This document shows positions 1-6,646 of a stretch of DNA of 64,000 nucleotides, piece after piece. The stretch's first letter is position 1, and each line of letters starts with the position of its first letter. The notes under the pieces are model-generated. The model did not search any database, was not told the origin of the DNA, and was given only the letters and a program-made list of their open reading frames with translations. The stretch is from Microbacterium trichothecenolyticum (GTDB lineage Bacteria; Actinomycetota; Actinomycetes; Actinomycetales; Microbacteriaceae). The position numbers and the translations under genes are program-made. Location of the stretch: positions 1 to 64,000 of the forward strand of contig NZ_JYJA01000024.1 in NCBI RefSeq assembly GCF_000956465.1, read 5' to 3'.

Positions 1-1
1 C

Positions 2-247
2 CCACCGACGGCGCCGGTCGCCCCAGCCCCCGCCGCTCACTCCACCGAGCCGCCCAGATACGGCGAGCGGGTCGCGGCGAAGCCGGGTGCCGAGGGCGAA
101 CCCGGCGACGAATCCGCGCCGGATGCGCACGCCGTGGCTCCGGACCCCGGCGCGCACCCCGGGGACGCCGCCGAACCTGAACCGTCGACAGCCGCGGGGC
201 AGGACGAAGCGGACCCGGTACGCGCGGACGACAGCGAGCGCGCATGA
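2..247 (+). CDS. Partial CDS, disordered C-terminal tail of an unidentified protein
   Basis: An open frame enters at the left window edge and runs to a TGA at 245-247. The 81 visible residues are rich in Pro, Ala, Glu and Asp, with a PPRYGERV stretch and no recognisable domain, so this is a disordered tail. Tails of this kind are common on actinobacterial membrane and envelope proteins, but the function cannot be read from this part. The stop overlaps the start of the next gene (ATGA at 244-247), which implies translational coupling to the alpha/beta hydrolase. Confidence 0.7.
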   Translation, partial: PPTAPVAPAPAAHSTEPPRYGERVAAKPGAEGEPGDESAPDAHAVAPDPGAHPGDAAEPEPSTAAGQDEADPVRADDSERA

Positions 248-942
248 ACGCAGACGGGGATTCCTCGCGGATCGCCGTCGCGCTCCCGAGCGGGAACGCC
301 GAGGTATCAGCCGACCTGGTCATGCCGTCGTCGGCATGGGCGTTCGCGGCCGTTGCGCACGGTGCGGGCGCGGGGTATCGGCATCCGTTCCTCACCGGCT
401 TCGCCGACGCCCTGGCACGGGAGGGCGTAGCCACCCTGCGGTTCAACTTCCCGTACGCAGAGGCGGGCAGACGGATGCCGGGACCCGCGGCGCACGCGAT
501 CGCGACGTGGGCGGCGGTCCATGCCGAGCTGGCGGAGCGCGCCGCGGGCGCCCCCGTGTTCGCGATGGGCAAGTCGTACGGCGGGCGCATGGCGTCGATG
601 GCGGCGGCGGAGGGCGCGATCGATCCGGTCGGCTTGGTGTACCTCGGTTACCCGCTGCATCCGCCGGGCAGCCCCGACAAGGCCCGCACCTCGCACCTGC
701 CCGACGTGCCGCAGCCGCAGCTCTTCGTCGAAGGGACGAACGACCCCTTCATCGACCCCCACGAACAGCTCGAAGCCGCCGTCGCGTCGTGCCGGGTCGC
801 CGCGATCGCCTGGATCGACGGCGGCGGCCACTCGTTCGAAGTGAAGGGGCGCAAACGCCCTCCTGCCGAGATCGCGGCCGATCTCGCACCGGTGGTCGCG
901 GACTGGCTGCGCCGGACTCACTCGGGAGCAGGACCGACGTAA
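244..942 (+). CDS. Alpha/beta hydrolase (KANL3/Tex30-like, dienelactone-hydrolase fold)
   Basis: A 232-residue protein with the alpha/beta hydrolase layout: an oxyanion-side AHGAGAG loop near residues 38-44, a nucleophile elbow GKSYGG with Ser111, a probable acid Asp167 in EGTNDPF, and His196 in GGGHSFEV. The family resembles the KANL3/Tex30 alpha/beta hydrolases, whose bacterial members are mostly uncharacterised cytosolic esterase-like proteins. There is no signal peptide. The ATG overlaps the upstream stop, so it is probably co-translated with the preceding gene. Its 3' end overlaps the convergent citrate synthase-like gene by 25 bases. The substrate is unknown. Confidence 0.85.
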   Translation: MNADGDSSRIAVALPSGNAEVSADLVMPSSAWAFAAVAHGAGAGYRHPFLTGFADALAREGVATLRFNFPYAEAGRRMPGPAAHAIATWAAVHAELAERAAGAPVFAMGKSYGGRMASMAAAEGAIDPVGLVYLGYPLHPPGSPDKARTSHLPDVPQPQLFVEGTNDPFIDPHEQLEAAVASCRVAAIAWIDGGGHSFEVKGRKRPPAEIAADLAPVVADWLRRTHSGAGPT

Positions 943-2117
943 CGCCCTCGGGGTCGCAGGCGCATCGGGCGCTCGTCATACTCGTCAACCGCGTGCGAGA
1001 TCCAGCCGACGATGCGTCCGATCGCGAAGATCACCGATCCGGCGTCGTCGGACATGTCCGCCCAGAGGGTCAGCGCGGCCAATGCGAGGTCGAGGTTCGG
1101 CCGCAGGTCGGCGCGGCGAGCCACCTCATCGCAGACGGCGTCGACCGCGGCGAGGATGTCCGCGCTGTCCGTCGCGTCCCTCAGCAGCTCGAGGAGCACG
1201 GTCGCGCGCATGTCGCCCGCGGCATAGAGCGGCTGTCCGAACCCCGGGATCCCGCGGCCGCCGTCCCGCACGGCGCGCGCGATGGCGAGCGACGGGCTTC
1301 GGCCGTCGCGGACGGCGCGCACGAGCTGCGCGGCCGCGCGGCTCGCCGTGCCGTGCAAGGGTGCATCGAACGCGCCGAGCGCCGCGGTGACGACGGCATA
1401 TCCGGAGGCGCGGGCCGATGCCGCGACACGCGCGGCGAGTGTCGACACGGCGAGATCGTGGTCGATGACGAGCACCAGTGCCGCATCGAGCAGTCGTGGT
1501 CCGCCGGGGAGATCGCGCGGAGCGAGCGCGCGCCACAGCGTCCGCGCGACGCCCGCGGGCTGGTCGGCGGGGGCGAGCGCGGCGGGCAGGCCGGTGACGA
1601 GCCGCGCTCCCACGCGCACCAGCTGCGACGGATCGGGGTCGTCGCGCAGGGGATCGCCGGCAGCGAGAGCCGCCACCGCGACGACCAGCCTGTCCACAGG
1701 CGGCGCCTCCGGGCCCAGGGCGTCGATCGTGCGTCGCGCGACGGCGAGATCGGCGGGCGACGGGGCGCGCAGTGCCGGTACGTCCCACAGCCACCTCACG
1801 ACCTCCTCGAACGTCGACTCGCGGGCGAGTCGTGCGGTGGATCGCTCGCGATAGTGCAGCTCGTCGTCCTCGATGTGGGCGAGTCTCGTGTCGAGCACCA
1901 TGAGCGGGGTGCCCGGAGCCGGCGAGCCGGGGACAGCACTCGGAGAGCGTCGGCGCCGGCGCGAGAACGCCTCGACCTCCAGCGGATCGAACGACGAGCC
2001 CGCGGCATCGCGCTCCCGCGACAGCAGTCCCCGTGAGACGTATGCGTACAGGGATTCCGGCTTGACGCCGAGACGGGCCGCGGCCTCAGCCGCGGTGAGC
2101 CGGGGAAGGTCGCTCAC
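918..2117 (-). CDS. Citrate synthase-fold protein with N-terminal helix-turn-helix
   Basis: 399 residues from the GTG at 2117. This start is chosen because it opens directly on the HTH; the longer frame would run back through the divergent gene. Residues 3-55 form a MerR/excisionase-type helix-turn-helix (LTAAEAAARLGVKPESLYAY), and the rest is a short-type citrate synthase domain. The first active-site His survives in DHDLAVST and the Asp in NLDL (Asp343), but the motif normally reading GFGHxVY is GFGQPLY, with Gln295 in place of the second catalytic His, and the following DPRA is DMRA. It may be a weak enzyme or, by inference, a ligand-sensing DNA-binding protein acting on the palindrome just upstream. 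It faces a second citrate synthase gene. Confidence 0.85.
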   Translation of the reverse strand: MSDLPRLTAAEAAARLGVKPESLYAYVSRGLLSRERDAAGSSFDPLEVEAFSRRRRRSPSAVPGSPAPGTPLMVLDTRLAHIEDDELHYRERSTARLARESTFEEVVRWLWDVPALRAPSPADLAVARRTIDALGPEAPPVDRLVVAVAALAAGDPLRDDPDPSQLVRVGARLVTGLPAALAPADQPAGVARTLWRALAPRDLPGGPRLLDAALVLVIDHDLAVSTLAARVAASARASGYAVVTAALGAFDAPLHGTASRAAAQLVRAVRDGRSPSLAIARAVRDGGRGIPGFGQPLYAAGDMRATVLLELLRDATDSADILAAVDAVCDEVARRADLRPNLDLALAALTLWADMSDDAGSVIFAIGRIVGWISHAVDEYDERPMRLRPRGRYVGPAPE

Positions 2118-2121
2118 GATG

Positions 2122-2134
2122 TTGATCCGATCAA
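2122..2134. promoter_or_regulatory. Perfect inverted repeat between the two citrate synthase genes
   Basis: TTGATC-C-GATCAA is a perfect 13-base palindrome in the 115-base divergent gap, 4 bases from the GTG of the HTH-citrate synthase. GATCAAG occurs again at 2150-2156, exactly 21 bases (two helical turns) from the copy at 2129-2135. The placement fits an operator, most simply for the HTH-bearing protein itself. This is inferred from sequence only. Confidence 0.55.
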
Positions 2135-2232
2135 GATTGACGAAAGCAGGATCAAGTTCCGACACTGAGTGTAGCGGGACCGACCGCCCACGGCGCGGTC
2201 GACTTCCCGGAACCCTCGAGCAAGGAGCCGAC

Positions 2233-3381
2233 ATGACGACGACACGCCTCACCCCGACAGACGCGCCGCGCGGCCTCGCCGGCGTGATCGTCGCCGAGAC
2301 CACCGTGAGCGACGTCCGCGGGGCGGAGGGCTTCTACCAGTACCGGGATCGGTCGGCGATCGAGCTGGCGGAGACGGGGAGCTTCGAAGACGCCTGGCAG
2401 CTCCTCGTCACCGGACAGGACGCGACGGATGCCTCGCGCCCGGGGTTCGCCGCCCGCGTCGCCGATGCCACCATCCGGCGGCGCGGCGACCTCGACCCCG
2501 TCGTCGACGCGGTGTCGACGGCGACGCCGGAGGTGCTCGCCGGGCTCGCGGCCGCCTGGCCGCTGCTCGGCGCGAGGCGCGGCATCCGTCCTCTCTACGA
2601 TCTCGACGAGGACGAACGCCTCGACGATGCGATCGCCCTCGCCGCCGCCACGCCGATGCTCGTCGGTGCCCTCTGGCGGCGCGGTCGCGGAGAGCGCGAG
2701 CTGCCCGTGCTGGAGGGCCGCGGCGTCGTCGCGAACTACCTCCGGCAGGTCACCGGACTCGTTCCGGACGAGGCGACCGAGAGCGCTCTGACCGCCTACC
2801 TGATCGCGGTCATGGATCACGGCTTCAACGCCTCCACCTTCACCGCCCGGGTCATCGCCTCGACCGGGGCCGACGTCGCCGCCTGCCTCGTCGGCGCCCT
2901 CGGAGCGCTCACCGGACCTCTCCACGGGGGCGCGCCGTCCCGTGCCCTCGACGGGCTCGATGCCGTCGGCGCCGACGACCGCATCGACTCGTGGATCCGC
3001 GGCGAGCTCGCGGCGGGGCGGCGTCTGATGGGGTTCGGTCATGCGGTGTACCGCACCGCGGACCCGCGCGCCGAGCTGATGAAGCGCGTCGCCCTGCGCA
3101 CGGGCGGGCCGCGTGTCGAGCTCGCGCTGCGGTTCCAGCAGAGCGCCGAGCGGCTGCTGGCCGATGCGAAGCCCGGCCGTGAGCTGCATGCGAACGTCGA
3201 GTTCTGGGCGGCGCTGGTGATGGAGCAGTGCGGGATCCCGCGCTCGATGTTCACGCCGACGTTCGCGGTCGCGCGCACGATCGGGTGGACGGCTCACATC
3301 CTCGAACAGGCGCACGACCCGAAGATCATCCGGCCGTCGTCGCGTTACGTGGGACCCGCGGTCCGAGTGGCGGCGGCCTGA
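2233..3381 (+). CDS. Citrate synthase / 2-methylcitrate synthase family protein
   Basis: 382 residues; the ATG at 2233 follows an AAGGAG Shine-Dalgarno at 2222-2227. Short-type citrate synthase, condensing oxaloacetate with acetyl-CoA or propionyl-CoA. Visible signatures are DHGFNAST (first catalytic His), GPLHGGAP, GFGHAVY with His270 followed by DPRAE, and a C-terminal FTPTFAVARTIGW...RYVGPA segment. The usual active-site Asp of the N-x-D-F motif is Glu323 (ANVEFW), a conservative but atypical change. Which acyl-CoA is used cannot be decided from sequence. It is transcribed divergently from the HTH-citrate synthase, and pairing of two citrate synthase-like genes suggests shared regulation or a mixed oligomer. 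Confidence 0.88.
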   Translation: MTTTRLTPTDAPRGLAGVIVAETTVSDVRGAEGFYQYRDRSAIELAETGSFEDAWQLLVTGQDATDASRPGFAARVADATIRRRGDLDPVVDAVSTATPEVLAGLAAAWPLLGARRGIRPLYDLDEDERLDDAIALAAATPMLVGALWRRGRGERELPVLEGRGVVANYLRQVTGLVPDEATESALTAYLIAVMDHGFNASTFTARVIASTGADVAACLVGALGALTGPLHGGAPSRALDGLDAVGADDRIDSWIRGELAAGRRLMGFGHAVYRTADPRAELMKRVALRTGGPRVELALRFQQSAERLLADAKPGRELHANVEFWAALVMEQCGIPRSMFTPTFAVARTIGWTAHILEQAHDPKIIRPSSRYVGPAVRVAAA

Positions 3382-3387
3382 TCGGGA

Positions 3388-5190
3388 CTATCGTCCGGCG
3401 GCGTACCCCTGCATCCCGCGCGGGTTCGCCGCACCCCACAGGACGCCGGTGGCGGCATCCCGTCCGACGGCCGACACGCGGCCGAGCGCCCAGTCGCCCG
3501 CTCGTGTGACGCGGTGGCCGCGGCGCTCGAGCCCCTCGATCAGCGAGTCGCCCAGCCGGTTCTCGACGACGGCGCCGGCGGGCGTCCAGGTGCGGGGCCA
3601 GAAGGACTCGGGCATCGAAGTGGTGTGCAGCGCGGGCGCATCGATCGCCTGCTGCGGCGTATAGCCGCCGACGATGATGCGCAGCAGGGCAAGCACCTGC
3701 CACTGGTCCTGCTGATCGCCGCCGGGGGAGCCGATCGCGAACTCCGGCGTGCCGTCCCGAAGCACCAGCGTGGGTGTGAGGGTCGTCCGCGGGCGCCTCC
3801 CTGCGACGAGCGAAGACGGGTGCCCCGGCTCGAGCCATGTCATCTGCAGACGCGTTCCGAGGCAGAACCCCAGCGCCGGGACGGTGGGCGAGGATTGCAG
3901 CCACCCGCCCGAGGGAGTCGCCGAGACGATGTTCCCCCATCGGTCGATGACGTCGAGATGGCACGTGTCGCCGCGCGTCTCGCCGGTTCTGGCGACGGTC
4001 GGCTCGCCCGTGCCCACCGTGGGAGCGTCGTAGGTCGTGCGCAGCGGGGGACGGAACGGCGTACGCCCCGCCAGCGGACCCGGGCGGAACTCGGCCGAGG
4101 CCTGCGACGTGATCTGCGACCTTCTCGCGTCGAGGTAGTCGGCCGACAGCAGCGCGTCGAGGTCGACGTCGTCGTCCCCGAACCAGGCGTCGCGGTCGGC
4201 GTAGGCCAGCTTCTGCGCCTCGAGGATCGTGTGCGCGCCCTCCTCCTGCGACGGGTCGAGCAGGTCGTCGGCGAGGGGCTCGAGCAGGCCCAGCGTCTGC
4301 AGCAGCGCGGGGCCCTGCGTCCACGCGCCGGCCTTCGCGATCGTGCGGCCGCGGAACTCCCGCGTGATCGCGGGCTCGTAGCCGGCGTCGAAGCTCGCGA
4401 AGTCGTCCGCGGTGATGACCGCCGCGTGCAGGCCGCCGCCGGAGTGCCGGTGCGGCTGCGACAGGAACGCGGACGCCTCGTGCGCGACGATCCCGGTCTT
4501 CCAATCGCGCCGCGCGGCGTCGATGCGGGCGGCCCGTCCGACGGGCCCGTCGTCGCGCACGGTGCACGACGCGTGGACCAGCGAGTCGAGCACCTCGGCG
4601 TAGGCCGGGTTCCGCATGATCTGACCGGCGACCGGAATCTCGCCCCCGGGCATCCACAGGTCGGCGGATGTCGTCCAGCCTTCGCGGAAGAGCTCGGCGA
4701 CGCGCGCGATCGTGGCGGCCGCGCCCGCCACGAGCGGGTGCCCGTCGCGCGCATAGCCGATGGCGTACGCGAGGACGTCGGTGAGCTCCCATGTCCCGTG
4801 GTCGCGCAGCAGCAGCAGCCATGCGTCCACGGCGCCGGGCACCGCGGACGCGAGGCCTCCGGCGCCGGGCGTGAGCTCGAGACCCTCGCTGCGGTAGTGC
4901 TCGATCGTGGCGCCGGCGGGCGCCGGGCCCTGGCCCATCAGCACGGTCGGGGCGGCGGCATCCACCGGCTGGAAGATCGCCACGAGATCGCCGCCGGGCC
5001 CGTTGAGGTGGGGCTCGACGACGTGCAGGACGAAGGCCGCGGCGACCGACGCGTCGAAGGCGTTGCCGCCCCGTTCGAGCACGGCCTGCGCGGTCGCGGT
5101 CGCGATCCAGTGCGTGGACGCGGCCATACCGAACGTGCCCGTCAGGGTCGGACGCGTCGTGAAGGACGACGGGGCGGTGTACTTCGACAC
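3388..5190 (-). CDS. ggt: Gamma-glutamyltransferase family protein
   Basis: A 600-residue N-terminal nucleophile hydrolase of the GGT family, which hydrolyses or transfers the gamma-glutamyl group of glutathione-like peptides after self-cleavage. The start of the family fold is clear (ERGGNAFDASVAAAFVL), the predicted self-processing and catalytic Thr is Thr409 in GDTCHLDVID, and SPGGDQQDQW is the small-subunit glycine loop. No signal peptide is visible, unlike secreted GGTs, so a cytosolic role is possible. The GTG start lies 22 bases downstream of the aminopeptidase P stop, so the two probably form a peptide-degradation operon. Its 3' end lies 6 bases from the convergent citrate synthase gene. 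Confidence 0.88.
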   Translation of the reverse strand: MSKYTAPSSFTTRPTLTGTFGMAASTHWIATATAQAVLERGGNAFDASVAAAFVLHVVEPHLNGPGGDLVAIFQPVDAAAPTVLMGQGPAPAGATIEHYRSEGLELTPGAGGLASAVPGAVDAWLLLLRDHGTWELTDVLAYAIGYARDGHPLVAGAAATIARVAELFREGWTTSADLWMPGGEIPVAGQIMRNPAYAEVLDSLVHASCTVRDDGPVGRAARIDAARRDWKTGIVAHEASAFLSQPHRHSGGGLHAAVITADDFASFDAGYEPAITREFRGRTIAKAGAWTQGPALLQTLGLLEPLADDLLDPSQEEGAHTILEAQKLAYADRDAWFGDDDVDLDALLSADYLDARRSQITSQASAEFRPGPLAGRTPFRPPLRTTYDAPTVGTGEPTVARTGETRGDTCHLDVIDRWGNIVSATPSGGWLQSSPTVPALGFCLGTRLQMTWLEPGHPSSLVAGRRPRTTLTPTLVLRDGTPEFAIGSPGGDQQDQWQVLALLRIIVGGYTPQQAIDAPALHTTSMPESFWPRTWTPAGAVVENRLGDSLIEGLERRGHRVTRAGDWALGRVSAVGRDAATGVLWGAANPRGMQGYAAGR

Positions 5191-5212
5191 GCTCGATGAC
5201 CGATGAGGGCGT

Positions 5213-6646
5213 TCAGCGGCCGCCGCGGGCGATCCAGGCCTCGACCTCGTCGGCGGTGCGCGGGATCGCGGCAGACAGGTTGACCGGTCCGTCGGCGGTC
5301 ATGAGGATGTCGTCCTCGATGCGCACGCCGATGCCGCGGTACTCCTCGGGAACGGTGATGTCGTCGATCTGGAAGTACAGGCCGGGCTCGATCGTGAAGA
5401 CCATGCCCGCCTCGAGGATGCCGTCGTAGTACATGTCGCGGCGCGCCTGCGCGCAGTCGTGCACGTCGATGCCGAGGTGGTGGCTCGTGCCGTGCACCAT
5501 GTAGCGCCGGTGGTGGCCGCCGTTCTCGGCGTCGAGCGCCTCCTCGGCGGTGACGGGAAGGAGACCCCATTCGGCCACACGCGTCGCGATGACCTGCATC
5601 GCCGCCTCGTGGATCGAGCGGAACTTCACGCCAGGCTTCGCCACGGCGAACGCGGCGTCGGCCGCCTCGCGCACGGTCTCATACACCTTGCGCTGCACGT
5701 CCGTGAAGCGGCCGCTCACCGGCAGCGTGCGTGTGATGTCGGCGGTGTAGAGGCTGTCGACCTCGACGCCGGCGTCGATGAGGATGAGGTCCCCGGGGAC
5801 GACGGCGCCGTCGTTGCGCGTCCAATGCAGGTAGCACGCGTGGGGGCCGGACGCTGCGATCGTGTCGTAGCCGACGGTGTTGCCGTCGCTGCGCGCACGC
5901 TGGTGGAAGACACCTTCCACGACGCGCTCGCCGCGGGGATGCTCGACGATCGCGGGGAGGTTCGCGACGATGTCGTCGAAACCGGACGCGGTGACCTGGA
6001 CGGCGAGTTCCATCTGACCGATCTCGTAGGCGTCCTTCACGAGCCGCAGCTCCGAGACGAACCGGGTGAGGTCGTCGTCCTCGTCGAGCACGACATCCCC
6101 GTCGCCGGCCTCGAAGTCGTCGATGTGCGCCGTCGCGAGGCCGAGGTCGGATGCGACGCCGGCAAGGGCGGGCCGGGGGCCGATCCAGAACTCGCCGATC
6201 GAGGCATCCGAGTAGAACTCGCTCGTCGTGCGGTCGGCGCGCTCGCGGAAGTACAGCGTGACGTCGTGGCCGCCTGACGAGCGGGGCTCGAATACCAGCA
6301 CGGCGCCGGGCTCGGCGTCGGACGCCCAGCCCGTCAGGTGGGAGAAGGCGGAGTGCGCGCGGAACGGGTAGTCGGTGTCATTGCTGCGCTGCTTGAGCTC
6401 GCCCGCGGGGATCACGAGGCGCTTGCCCGGGAAGGCGGCAGAAACCGCGTCACGCCGCGCAGCCGTGAAGGCTGCCTGCGGGCGTGCCGGCGGAGCGGAC
6501 TCCGGGCGTTCGGCCCATCCGGTCGAGATGGTGTCGAGGAAGCCCTGCCCGTACGGCTGACGGCGGTTCGTGCTGGTCGACGTCGGGGTCGAGGTCTCGG
6601 TGGTGCTCGTGGCGCCGGGGGACTGCTCGCTGGCTGCGCTGCTCAT
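5213..6646 (-). CDS. Aminopeptidase P family protein (Xaa-Pro aminopeptidase)
   Basis: 477 residues from the ATG at 6646; the much longer open frame upstream is antisense noise. Residues 1-45 are Ser/Thr/Gly-rich and disordered, then comes an aminopeptidase P N-terminal domain followed by a pita-bread metallopeptidase (M24). Metal ligands are visible in order: Asp in IDAGVEVDS and DITRT, His in HGTSHHLGIDVHD, Glu in TIEPGLYF and Glu in RIEDD. It removes N-terminal residues preceding proline in the cytosol and binds two Mn or similar ions. GGGAGG lies just before the start codon. It is the first gene of a probable operon with the GGT gene. Confidence 0.92.
   Translation of the reverse strand: MSSAASEQSPGATSTTETSTPTSTSTNRRQPYGQGFLDTISTGWAERPESAPPARPQAAFTAARRDAVSAAFPGKRLVIPAGELKQRSNDTDYPFRAHSAFSHLTGWASDAEPGAVLVFEPRSSGGHDVTLYFRERADRTTSEFYSDASIGEFWIGPRPALAGVASDLGLATAHIDDFEAGDGDVVLDEDDDLTRFVSELRLVKDAYEIGQMELAVQVTASGFDDIVANLPAIVEHPRGERVVEGVFHQRARSDGNTVGYDTIAASGPHACYLHWTRNDGAVVPGDLILIDAGVEVDSLYTADITRTLPVSGRFTDVQRKVYETVREAADAAFAVAKPGVKFRSIHEAAMQVIATRVAEWGLLPVTAEEALDAENGGHHRRYMVHGTSHHLGIDVHDCAQARRDMYYDGILEAGMVFTIEPGLYFQIDDITVPEEYRGIGVRIEDDILMTADGPVNLSAAIPRTADEVEAWIARGGR

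Follow-up and report, generated by a model that had tools for sequence, protein, structure and literature searches.

One-component regulators built on enzyme folds are a known class, in which citrate synthase (CS) as the sensor fold would be new. The citrate branch of Bacillus subtilis is under LysR-type control, with CitR presumably encoded divergently from the CitA-type gene citA. CcpC, a LysR-type citrate sensor of Bacillus with a sensor domain other than CS, likewise acts on branch genes of the tricarboxylic acid (TCA) cycle (PMC8514465). In Streptomyces coelicolor, SCO5831 and SCO5832 (citA3/citA4) are putative citrate synthases treated as enzymes under MtrA, for which the sco5831-sco5832 intergenic region contains a binding site (PMC12323332). 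In Caulobacter, CitB complements Escherichia coli gltA and CitC does not (citB/citC are CCNA_03757/03758), the main finding of that study being that another CS, CitA, influences the cell cycle independently of its activity (PMC7083601). Here we describe a gene in a 64,000-bp stretch of Microbacterium trichothecenolyticum (GCF_000956465.1, contig NZ_JYJA01000024.1, positions 1 to 64,000; hereafter the window). The gene lies at 918..2117 on the minus strand (GTG start at 2117, stop codon 918-920) and encodes a protein of 399 residues with a helix-turn-helix (HTH) in front of a CS fold, named HTH-CS here. The best reading of our comparisons is that such proteins form a so far unrecognised family of one-component regulators that sense oxaloacetate, citrate or acyl-coenzyme A (acyl-CoA), and HTH-CS itself is likely a one-component transcription factor built from citrate synthase. 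In the open-access papers searched, which include few subscription articles, we recognised no description of a CS-fold transcription factor.

The initial annotation of this DNA had proposed an HTH joined to a citrate synthase domain, and profiles and models bear this out. Residues 73-390 match Pfam Citrate_synt (PF00285) with 161 bits against a cut-off of 27, and the same profile is matched by all 77 HTH-CS relatives compared. The N-terminus scores below cut-off with both MerR (22.5 bits, cut-off 28.2) and HTH_17 (20.6 bits, cut-off 27); among the 77 relatives, HTH_17 is found in 69 and MerR in 43 at E <= 0.001. An AlphaFold model built with 19 sequences (mean predicted local distance difference test score, pLDDT, 84; predicted template modelling score, pTM, 0.83) has a helix-turn-helix, a hairpin and a helix within residues 9-56, followed by a poorly predicted linker and the CS body. 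We delimit a winged HTH domain of MerR/BldC/Xis type at residues 1-57 (1947..2117, minus strand; helices 9-16 and 20-28, hairpin 35-43, helix 45-56), a linker at residues 58-72 (1902..1946, minus strand), which has low model confidence and is fast-evolving in most comparisons, and the CS fold, seen by profile and model, at residues 73-399 (921..1901, minus strand). The body matches solved citrate and methylcitrate synthases with Z-scores of up to 31 over approximately residues 70-384. Since CS chains filled the structure searches with the full model, the first 60 residues were modelled alone; the best matches were SoxR, BldC-DNA, RacA-DNA, NmlR and phage Xis, at a root-mean-square deviation of about 1.4-2.6 Å over ~50 residues, the best Foldseek E-value being just 0.003 (probability 1.0). 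A viral structure library returned only weak matches to the HTH domain (best E 0.09). By sequence and fold, the protein is a member of the citrate synthase superfamily, and at most a putative enzyme. No sequence relation to CcpC or CitR is expected. MocR/GabR regulators, which combine a GntR-type HTH with an aminotransferase-like sensor, likewise carry a DNA-binding head on a repurposed enzyme fold and have predicted operators of repeated half-sites and metabolic targets (PMC5320631); they differ in HTH family, enzyme fold and their pyridoxal phosphate effector, so that HTH-CS would work alike without being a member.

In the window's family, HTH-CS is found in 17 of 249 genomes, and the identical 17 hold a divergently encoded CS partner scoring above 210 bits, the next matches reaching 200 bits at most. 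A scan of species genomes yielded 18 more loci (Microbacterium, Leifsonia, Agrococcus, Gryllotalpicola, Nesterenkonia). The first set comprised 35 loci (34 distinct), all with a divergent CS gene, in some cases cut by the edge of the locus. Among 396 Actinomycetota genomes, 41 gave a match of at least 225 bits, one of them without the N-terminal part; a CS partner is present in 24 of 29 further Actinomycetota loci and none in the fetched stretch of the other five (L056, L059, L063, L064, L066). Relatives of HTH-CS are also carried by named plasmids in Pseudomonadota and Deinococcota, where they are annotated as citrate synthase, citrate/2-methylcitrate synthase or citrate synthase family protein. 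The 77 loci compared span Actinomycetota, Pseudomonadota and Deinococcota; L046 (a copy of L007) as well as L004 and L005 (other views of the window) were dropped.

The start codons of HTH-CS and its partner are separated by a gap of 115 bp that contains TTGATCCGATCAAGATTGAC at 2122-2141. Comparison of loci identifies this plus-strand element as an operator-like site of three half-sites, TTGAT-CCG-ATCAA-GA-TTGAC, and an extra half-site-like GATCAA follows downstream at 2150..2155 (plus strand), as in many loci of the same family. Using the pattern TTGAY-N2..9-RTCAA-NN-TTGAY within 260 bp upstream of HTH-CS, we found an exact site in 68 of the 77 loci, always on the strand that runs toward the neighbouring gene. 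The opposite strand has an overlapping second match in 27 of these 68 and is the sole matching strand in none. Elsewhere in the loci there was a single match in 914,170 strand-bases, and none of 200 order-1 Markov controls contained the site. When the pattern was not imposed, the gap from RTCAA to TTGAY was 2 bp in 69 cases, with at most 2 cases at each other distance up to 20; among matched sites, the first gap measures 3 bp at 41, 6 bp at 17 and 7 bp at 8. The window's own genome has its sole place without mismatch at this locus; with a slightly stricter pattern, the best other non-overlapping match there carries two mismatches. Extending the pattern by a fourth half-site at fixed distance gave no match in 7 genomes, and an Rfam search of window positions 1-6000 at gathering thresholds gave none. 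In our judgement it is very probable that HTH-CS binds DNA at 2122-2141. With a DNA-binding domain and an enzyme fold in one chain and a conserved operator-like site beside its gene, HTH-CS has two of the features expected of an enzyme-derived one-component regulator.

Loci examined after the pattern had been fixed carry an exact site within 260 bp in 28 of 41 cases. Among eleven Actinomycetota genomes with HTH-CS, the site lies no more than 260 bp upstream in nine (G279, G361 and seven others), and in those seven others it is the only exact match of the genome; G323 has it before the CS partner, ~1 kb from HTH-CS, and in G276 the N-terminus of HTH-CS is off the contig. Ten Pseudomonadota plasmid loci gave six exact sites (two from near-identical Variovorax loci), one site with one mismatch and three absences. 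Twenty further class loci, obtained from 30 rows (21 with a site) by removing the known L153, L155-L157, L161, L163, L164 and L166-L168, have an exact site in 13; a CS partner stands opposite in 16 of the twenty, and an HMGL-type gene, recognised by eye, in L178.

The third half-site, TTGAY, is in our reading of the aligned loci the -35 element of the divergent gene. In the window, TTGAC at 2137-2141 falls within the predicted -35 box TTGACG (2137..2142, plus strand), which is followed at 18 bp by a predicted -10-like GACACT (2161..2166, plus strand) with a weak consensus match. Of the 68 sites, 36 have NANNNT 17 bp after the third half-site and 25 have it at 18 bp. TANNNT is seen 16 times at the 17-bp spacing; no other spacing between 10 and 25 bp has it more than once. 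The classical MerR operator lies between -35 and -10 elements that are separated by a long spacer of 19-20 bp. The placement predicted here differs, the site both overlapping the -35-like box and lying upstream of it, and the most frequent spacers being 17-18 bp.

The HTH is under strong constraint. In seven comparisons with other Microbacterium copies, the ratio of nonsynonymous to synonymous differences (pN/pS) is 0.03-0.13 for the HTH, 0.23-0.41 for the CS body and 0.12-1.27 for the linker; the low values of the two domains indicate that an architecture that includes Gln295 (see below) reflects neither chance nor decay. A quick tree was built from 150 CS rows, leaving out partner and other CS rows below 300 residues or 100 bits. 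In it, all 77 HTH-CS rows fall on one side of a branch (Shimodaira-Hasegawa-like approximate likelihood ratio test, SH-aLRT, 100) and the 57 partner rows on one side of another (SH-aLRT 97), with long branches and composition warnings. The simplest interpretation is thus a single fusion, and the pairs did not arise by local duplication; an origin of HTH-CS by recent duplication of the partner was rejected, HTH-CS and partner rows standing on separate sides.

The initial annotation had also pointed to GFGQPLY with glutamine in place of the His of GFGH, and translation confirms it: the motif reads IPGFGQPLYAAGDMR (PGFGQPLY), the codon of Gln295 being 1233..1235 on the minus strand. It had argued from this lost His to a regulator, and had asked by alignment whether Gln is fixed in the family. 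It is not. In the first set of 35 loci, position 295 is Gln in 29 and His in 6, and over the 77 loci it is Gln in 28, His in 48 and Met in one, for which the tree requires at least three changes; the Gln-bearing loci all belong to the window's family. The HTH is conserved where the His is present, so that homologues with a restored His and a decayed HTH, which would have spoken against a regulator, did not turn up. As His-bearing relatives keep the HTH and mostly also the site, this His is not what separates regulator from enzyme, and Gln295, absent from most HTH-CS proteins, does not define the family. Gln295 as a marker of regulators was rejected, the three changes needed on the tree being, for example, one gain and two returns to His; judged from the aligned loci, it is a lineage-specific change. 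The conclusion of the initial annotation, a transcription factor that senses through an enzyme fold, is nevertheless well supported by the conservation of the site, the gene lying divergently beside it and the constrained HTH, and only its premise of the lost His is unsupported.

Functional citrate synthases carry the catalytic His of GFGH, a second His of HG type and the Asp of NxD. Of these, the window protein lacks the first (Gln295) and keeps H255 and D343. Over the 77 loci, H255, R304, D343, R368 and R388 are invariant and H220 is present in 75; by motif, we take these six to be oxaloacetate-binding and catalytic residues of CS. The five remain invariant with 40 rows added (ten of them repeats). 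In 66 of the 77, another residue takes the place of the DHxxN Asn. Because the other active-site residues are nearly or fully invariant, ligand binding in the pocket, as far as alignment can tell, is probably retained. By the GFGH motif, Gln295 presumably occupies the position of the His that was mutated in Caulobacter CitA. There, exchange of the His for Trp or Ala abolished complementation (PMC7083601). Gln295 probably cripples the condensation while leaving the pocket intact, and would lower or abolish catalysis without removing binding.

The gene across the gap, proposed as the main target, is the divergent partner citrate synthase at 2233..3381 (plus strand; 382 residues, CitA-like, GFGH kept). 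It is one of four other CS-family genes of the genome, the remaining three lying elsewhere. Its closest solved relatives are B. subtilis CitA (2c6x, 234 bits) and Mycobacterium CitA (8glb, 6wgy; 212-213 bits), and it shares their NVEF motif; on both counts the partner is of CitA type, and these enzymes are related to it and not to the HTH protein. The nearest NCBIfam model, PRK12350.1, was narrowly missed (329 bits, cut-off 332). NVEF places a Glu at the position of the catalytic Asp, as in both CitA groups.

The neighbour changes while the site stays. In 14 plasmid loci, the divergent gene encodes a CS in four (L092, L094, L096, L104), an HMGL-type enzyme in three (L095, L100, L103), a CoA transferase in two (L093, L099), a major facilitator superfamily (MFS) protein in two (L097 and, by eye, L101) and a DUF2332 protein in one (L102); in L098 and L105 the neighbour is co-directional. 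HMGL-type genes also stand beside HTH-CS in L064 and L066, so that this enzyme replaces the CS partner in L064, L066, L095, L100, L103 and L178, with an exact site in five and a degenerate one in L064. These calls rest on profiles for L064, L095 and L100, on annotation as pyruvate carboxyltransferase for L095 and L103, and on inspection by eye for L066 and L178. In L100 and L064, the HMGL-type protein comes closest to homocitrate/2-isopropylmalate synthases, with scores under all curated cut-offs listed, and the neighbour is possibly a Re-type citrate synthase or a relative of one. Like CS, homocitrate and 2-isopropylmalate synthases condense an acyl-CoA with a 2-oxo acid. Given this likeness, HTH-CS may watch that chemistry whichever enzyme performs it.

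Several partners or their surroundings deviate individually. The partner CS of L065, whose frame begins ~35 bp beyond HTH-CS, seems by eye to have two CBS-like repeats at its N-terminus, which hints at an additional allosteric control of this reaction. In L056 the partner breaks off soon after its start and the site remains, as if the loss were recent. A CobW-like GTPase frame is seen by eye where partner and site are absent in at least L063; L059 has also lost both. A small cupin-like frame, recognised by eye, separates the site from the CS gene in L075 and L082, where the controlled unit may be an operon.

A mechanism can be proposed from these features. CS enzymes are dimers, and their domains close and open on ligand binding. 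The CS dimer body would hold two winged HTH heads of MerR/BldC type on the inverted half-sites TTGAT and ATCAA (2122-2141). With the third half-site over the -35-like box and the operator 4 bp from the HTH-CS start codon, bound protein should act on both genes. As it would be expected to hinder both, repression of both is our first choice, held with a slight preference, and activation from upstream of the -35 is also possible. Oxaloacetate, citrate or acyl-CoA in the CS cleft would close or open the domains, the heads would sit differently on the DNA, and enzyme supply would thereby follow substrates or product. That the CS pocket is the sensor is our working choice, somewhat better than even.

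A number of observations weigh against a regulator acting at this site. The pattern was derived from the first 77 loci, the loci are related, and several of the later plasmid loci are close kin of earlier ones. The exact site is missing upstream in nine of the 77. Near misses with 1-3 mismatches are seen in L064, L065, L067, L074 and L093; as shuffled controls reach three mismatches in 15 of 231 (two in 1), that of L064, which has three, could be chance. No site is found in L098 and L105, a co-directional Burkholderiales subclade where HTH-CS comes after other genes of like orientation, nor in L146, L147 and L152 of the later plasmid set. The seven misses among the twenty class loci all come from one family that has the CS partner and keeps TTGAY-N4-ATCAA, with YATATCT in place of the third half-site. 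L160, L162 and L181 have the site and no CS partner in the fetched stretch. As to the promoter, NANNNT also recurs at different distances (10 and 11 bp, 21 of 68 each; 24 bp, 12; 20 bp, 9), which probably reflects sequence common to close relatives, and a stock sigma-70 consensus scan of 2050-2300 returned no promoter, so that the promoter call is a comparative one. The site could also belong to another factor, as the analogy with MtrA in S. coelicolor suggests, and the relatives with a retained His, the majority, may still function as enzymes. The remaining two of the nine loci without an exact site, L059 and L063, have no CS partner either, which we count as support for the link between regulator and site.

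The seven-member family (L171-L176, L180) has the variant TTGAY-N4-ATCAAYATATCTA, with more TCAA/TTGA elements soon after and an HTH that is hardly changed. Since two half-sites persist there, the first two look more constant than the third. In the Burkholderiales group without a site (L098, L105, L146, L147, L152), the three annotated members follow genes for MFS and vicinal oxygen chelate (VOC) proteins co-directionally, and the group may bind elsewhere or have lost DNA control.

Regulators that double as enzymes, such as PutA and BirA, offer a precedent for a different account, in which HTH-CS binds the operator and His-bearing relatives are in addition slow citrate or methylcitrate synthases, Gln members having lost or slowed the enzyme half. 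The kept His in 48 of 77, the five residues invariant in all rows and a fold that matches active enzymes would fit this account; the replaced DHxxN Asn (66 of 77) and the separation of HTH-CS rows from the enzymes in the tree do not, and in the window Gln stands in place of a His whose presumed counterpart in CitA is needed for complementation (PMC7083601). We regard such a bifunctional protein as doubtful. It is very improbable that HTH-CS is an enzyme whose N-terminal HTH fold merely decorates it, serving assembly or regulation of the CS, with the site belonging to another regulator or being mainly a strong promoter. CS enzymes can indeed bear extra N-terminal segments. MtrA binding in the S. 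coelicolor intergenic region (PMC12323332) would also agree; however, the pN/pS of the HTH is far below that of the CS body, the site accompanies HTH-CS across phyla beside unrelated neighbours, and half-sites upstream of the -35-like box would be superfluous for a promoter.

The strict pairing in the window's family raises the further idea of a regulatory subunit that forms mixed dimers with the partner CS, the two being complementary in the window: the partner has Glu for Asp in NVEF, and the HTH protein keeps the Asp and lacks the His. This seems very improbable to us, as the Glu is shared with B. subtilis and mycobacterial CitA, whose solved structures are named citrate synthases, HTH-CS also occurs beside non-CS genes, and HTH and site would be left unexplained. 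Returning to HTH-CS as a transcription factor, the described CS pairs may extend its reach. SCO5831/SCO5832 resemble many HTH-CS loci in being a CS pair with one regulatory intergenic region (PMC12323332), and the consecutively numbered, CS-like citB/citC genes include one product, CitC, whose failure to complement is as expected for HTH-CS (PMC7083601). SCO5831/SCO5832 and CitC may belong to the family; for citC in particular this is a guess.

If HTH-CS proteins are regulators, many genes of soil and plant bacteria labelled citrate synthase would be regulators, and TCA-cycle redundancy, flux models and knock-outs would be read differently, perhaps including those of S. coelicolor citA3/citA4. 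The protein would be a candidate for sensing oxaloacetate, citrate or acetyl-CoA inside the cell and would come with a ready operator for testing, and the step from enzyme to transcription factor could be traced residue by residue in living relatives. A bolder version, which we hold to be rather improbable, is that a family of CS-bodied transcription factors in at least three phyla has been filed as enzymes, keeping an ancient DNA code while its targets were swapped; members with the His may turn over substrate and so reset the switch, and the Gln branch would be a pure ligand-holding sensor, the two representing different stages of one route from enzyme to regulator.

On its other side, HTH-CS faces an alpha/beta hydrolase gene (Abhydrolase_11, window 244-942) that is convergent with it and ends inside it (overlap 918-942). 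A relative of this hydrolase adjoins HTH-CS in 11 other Microbacterium loci.

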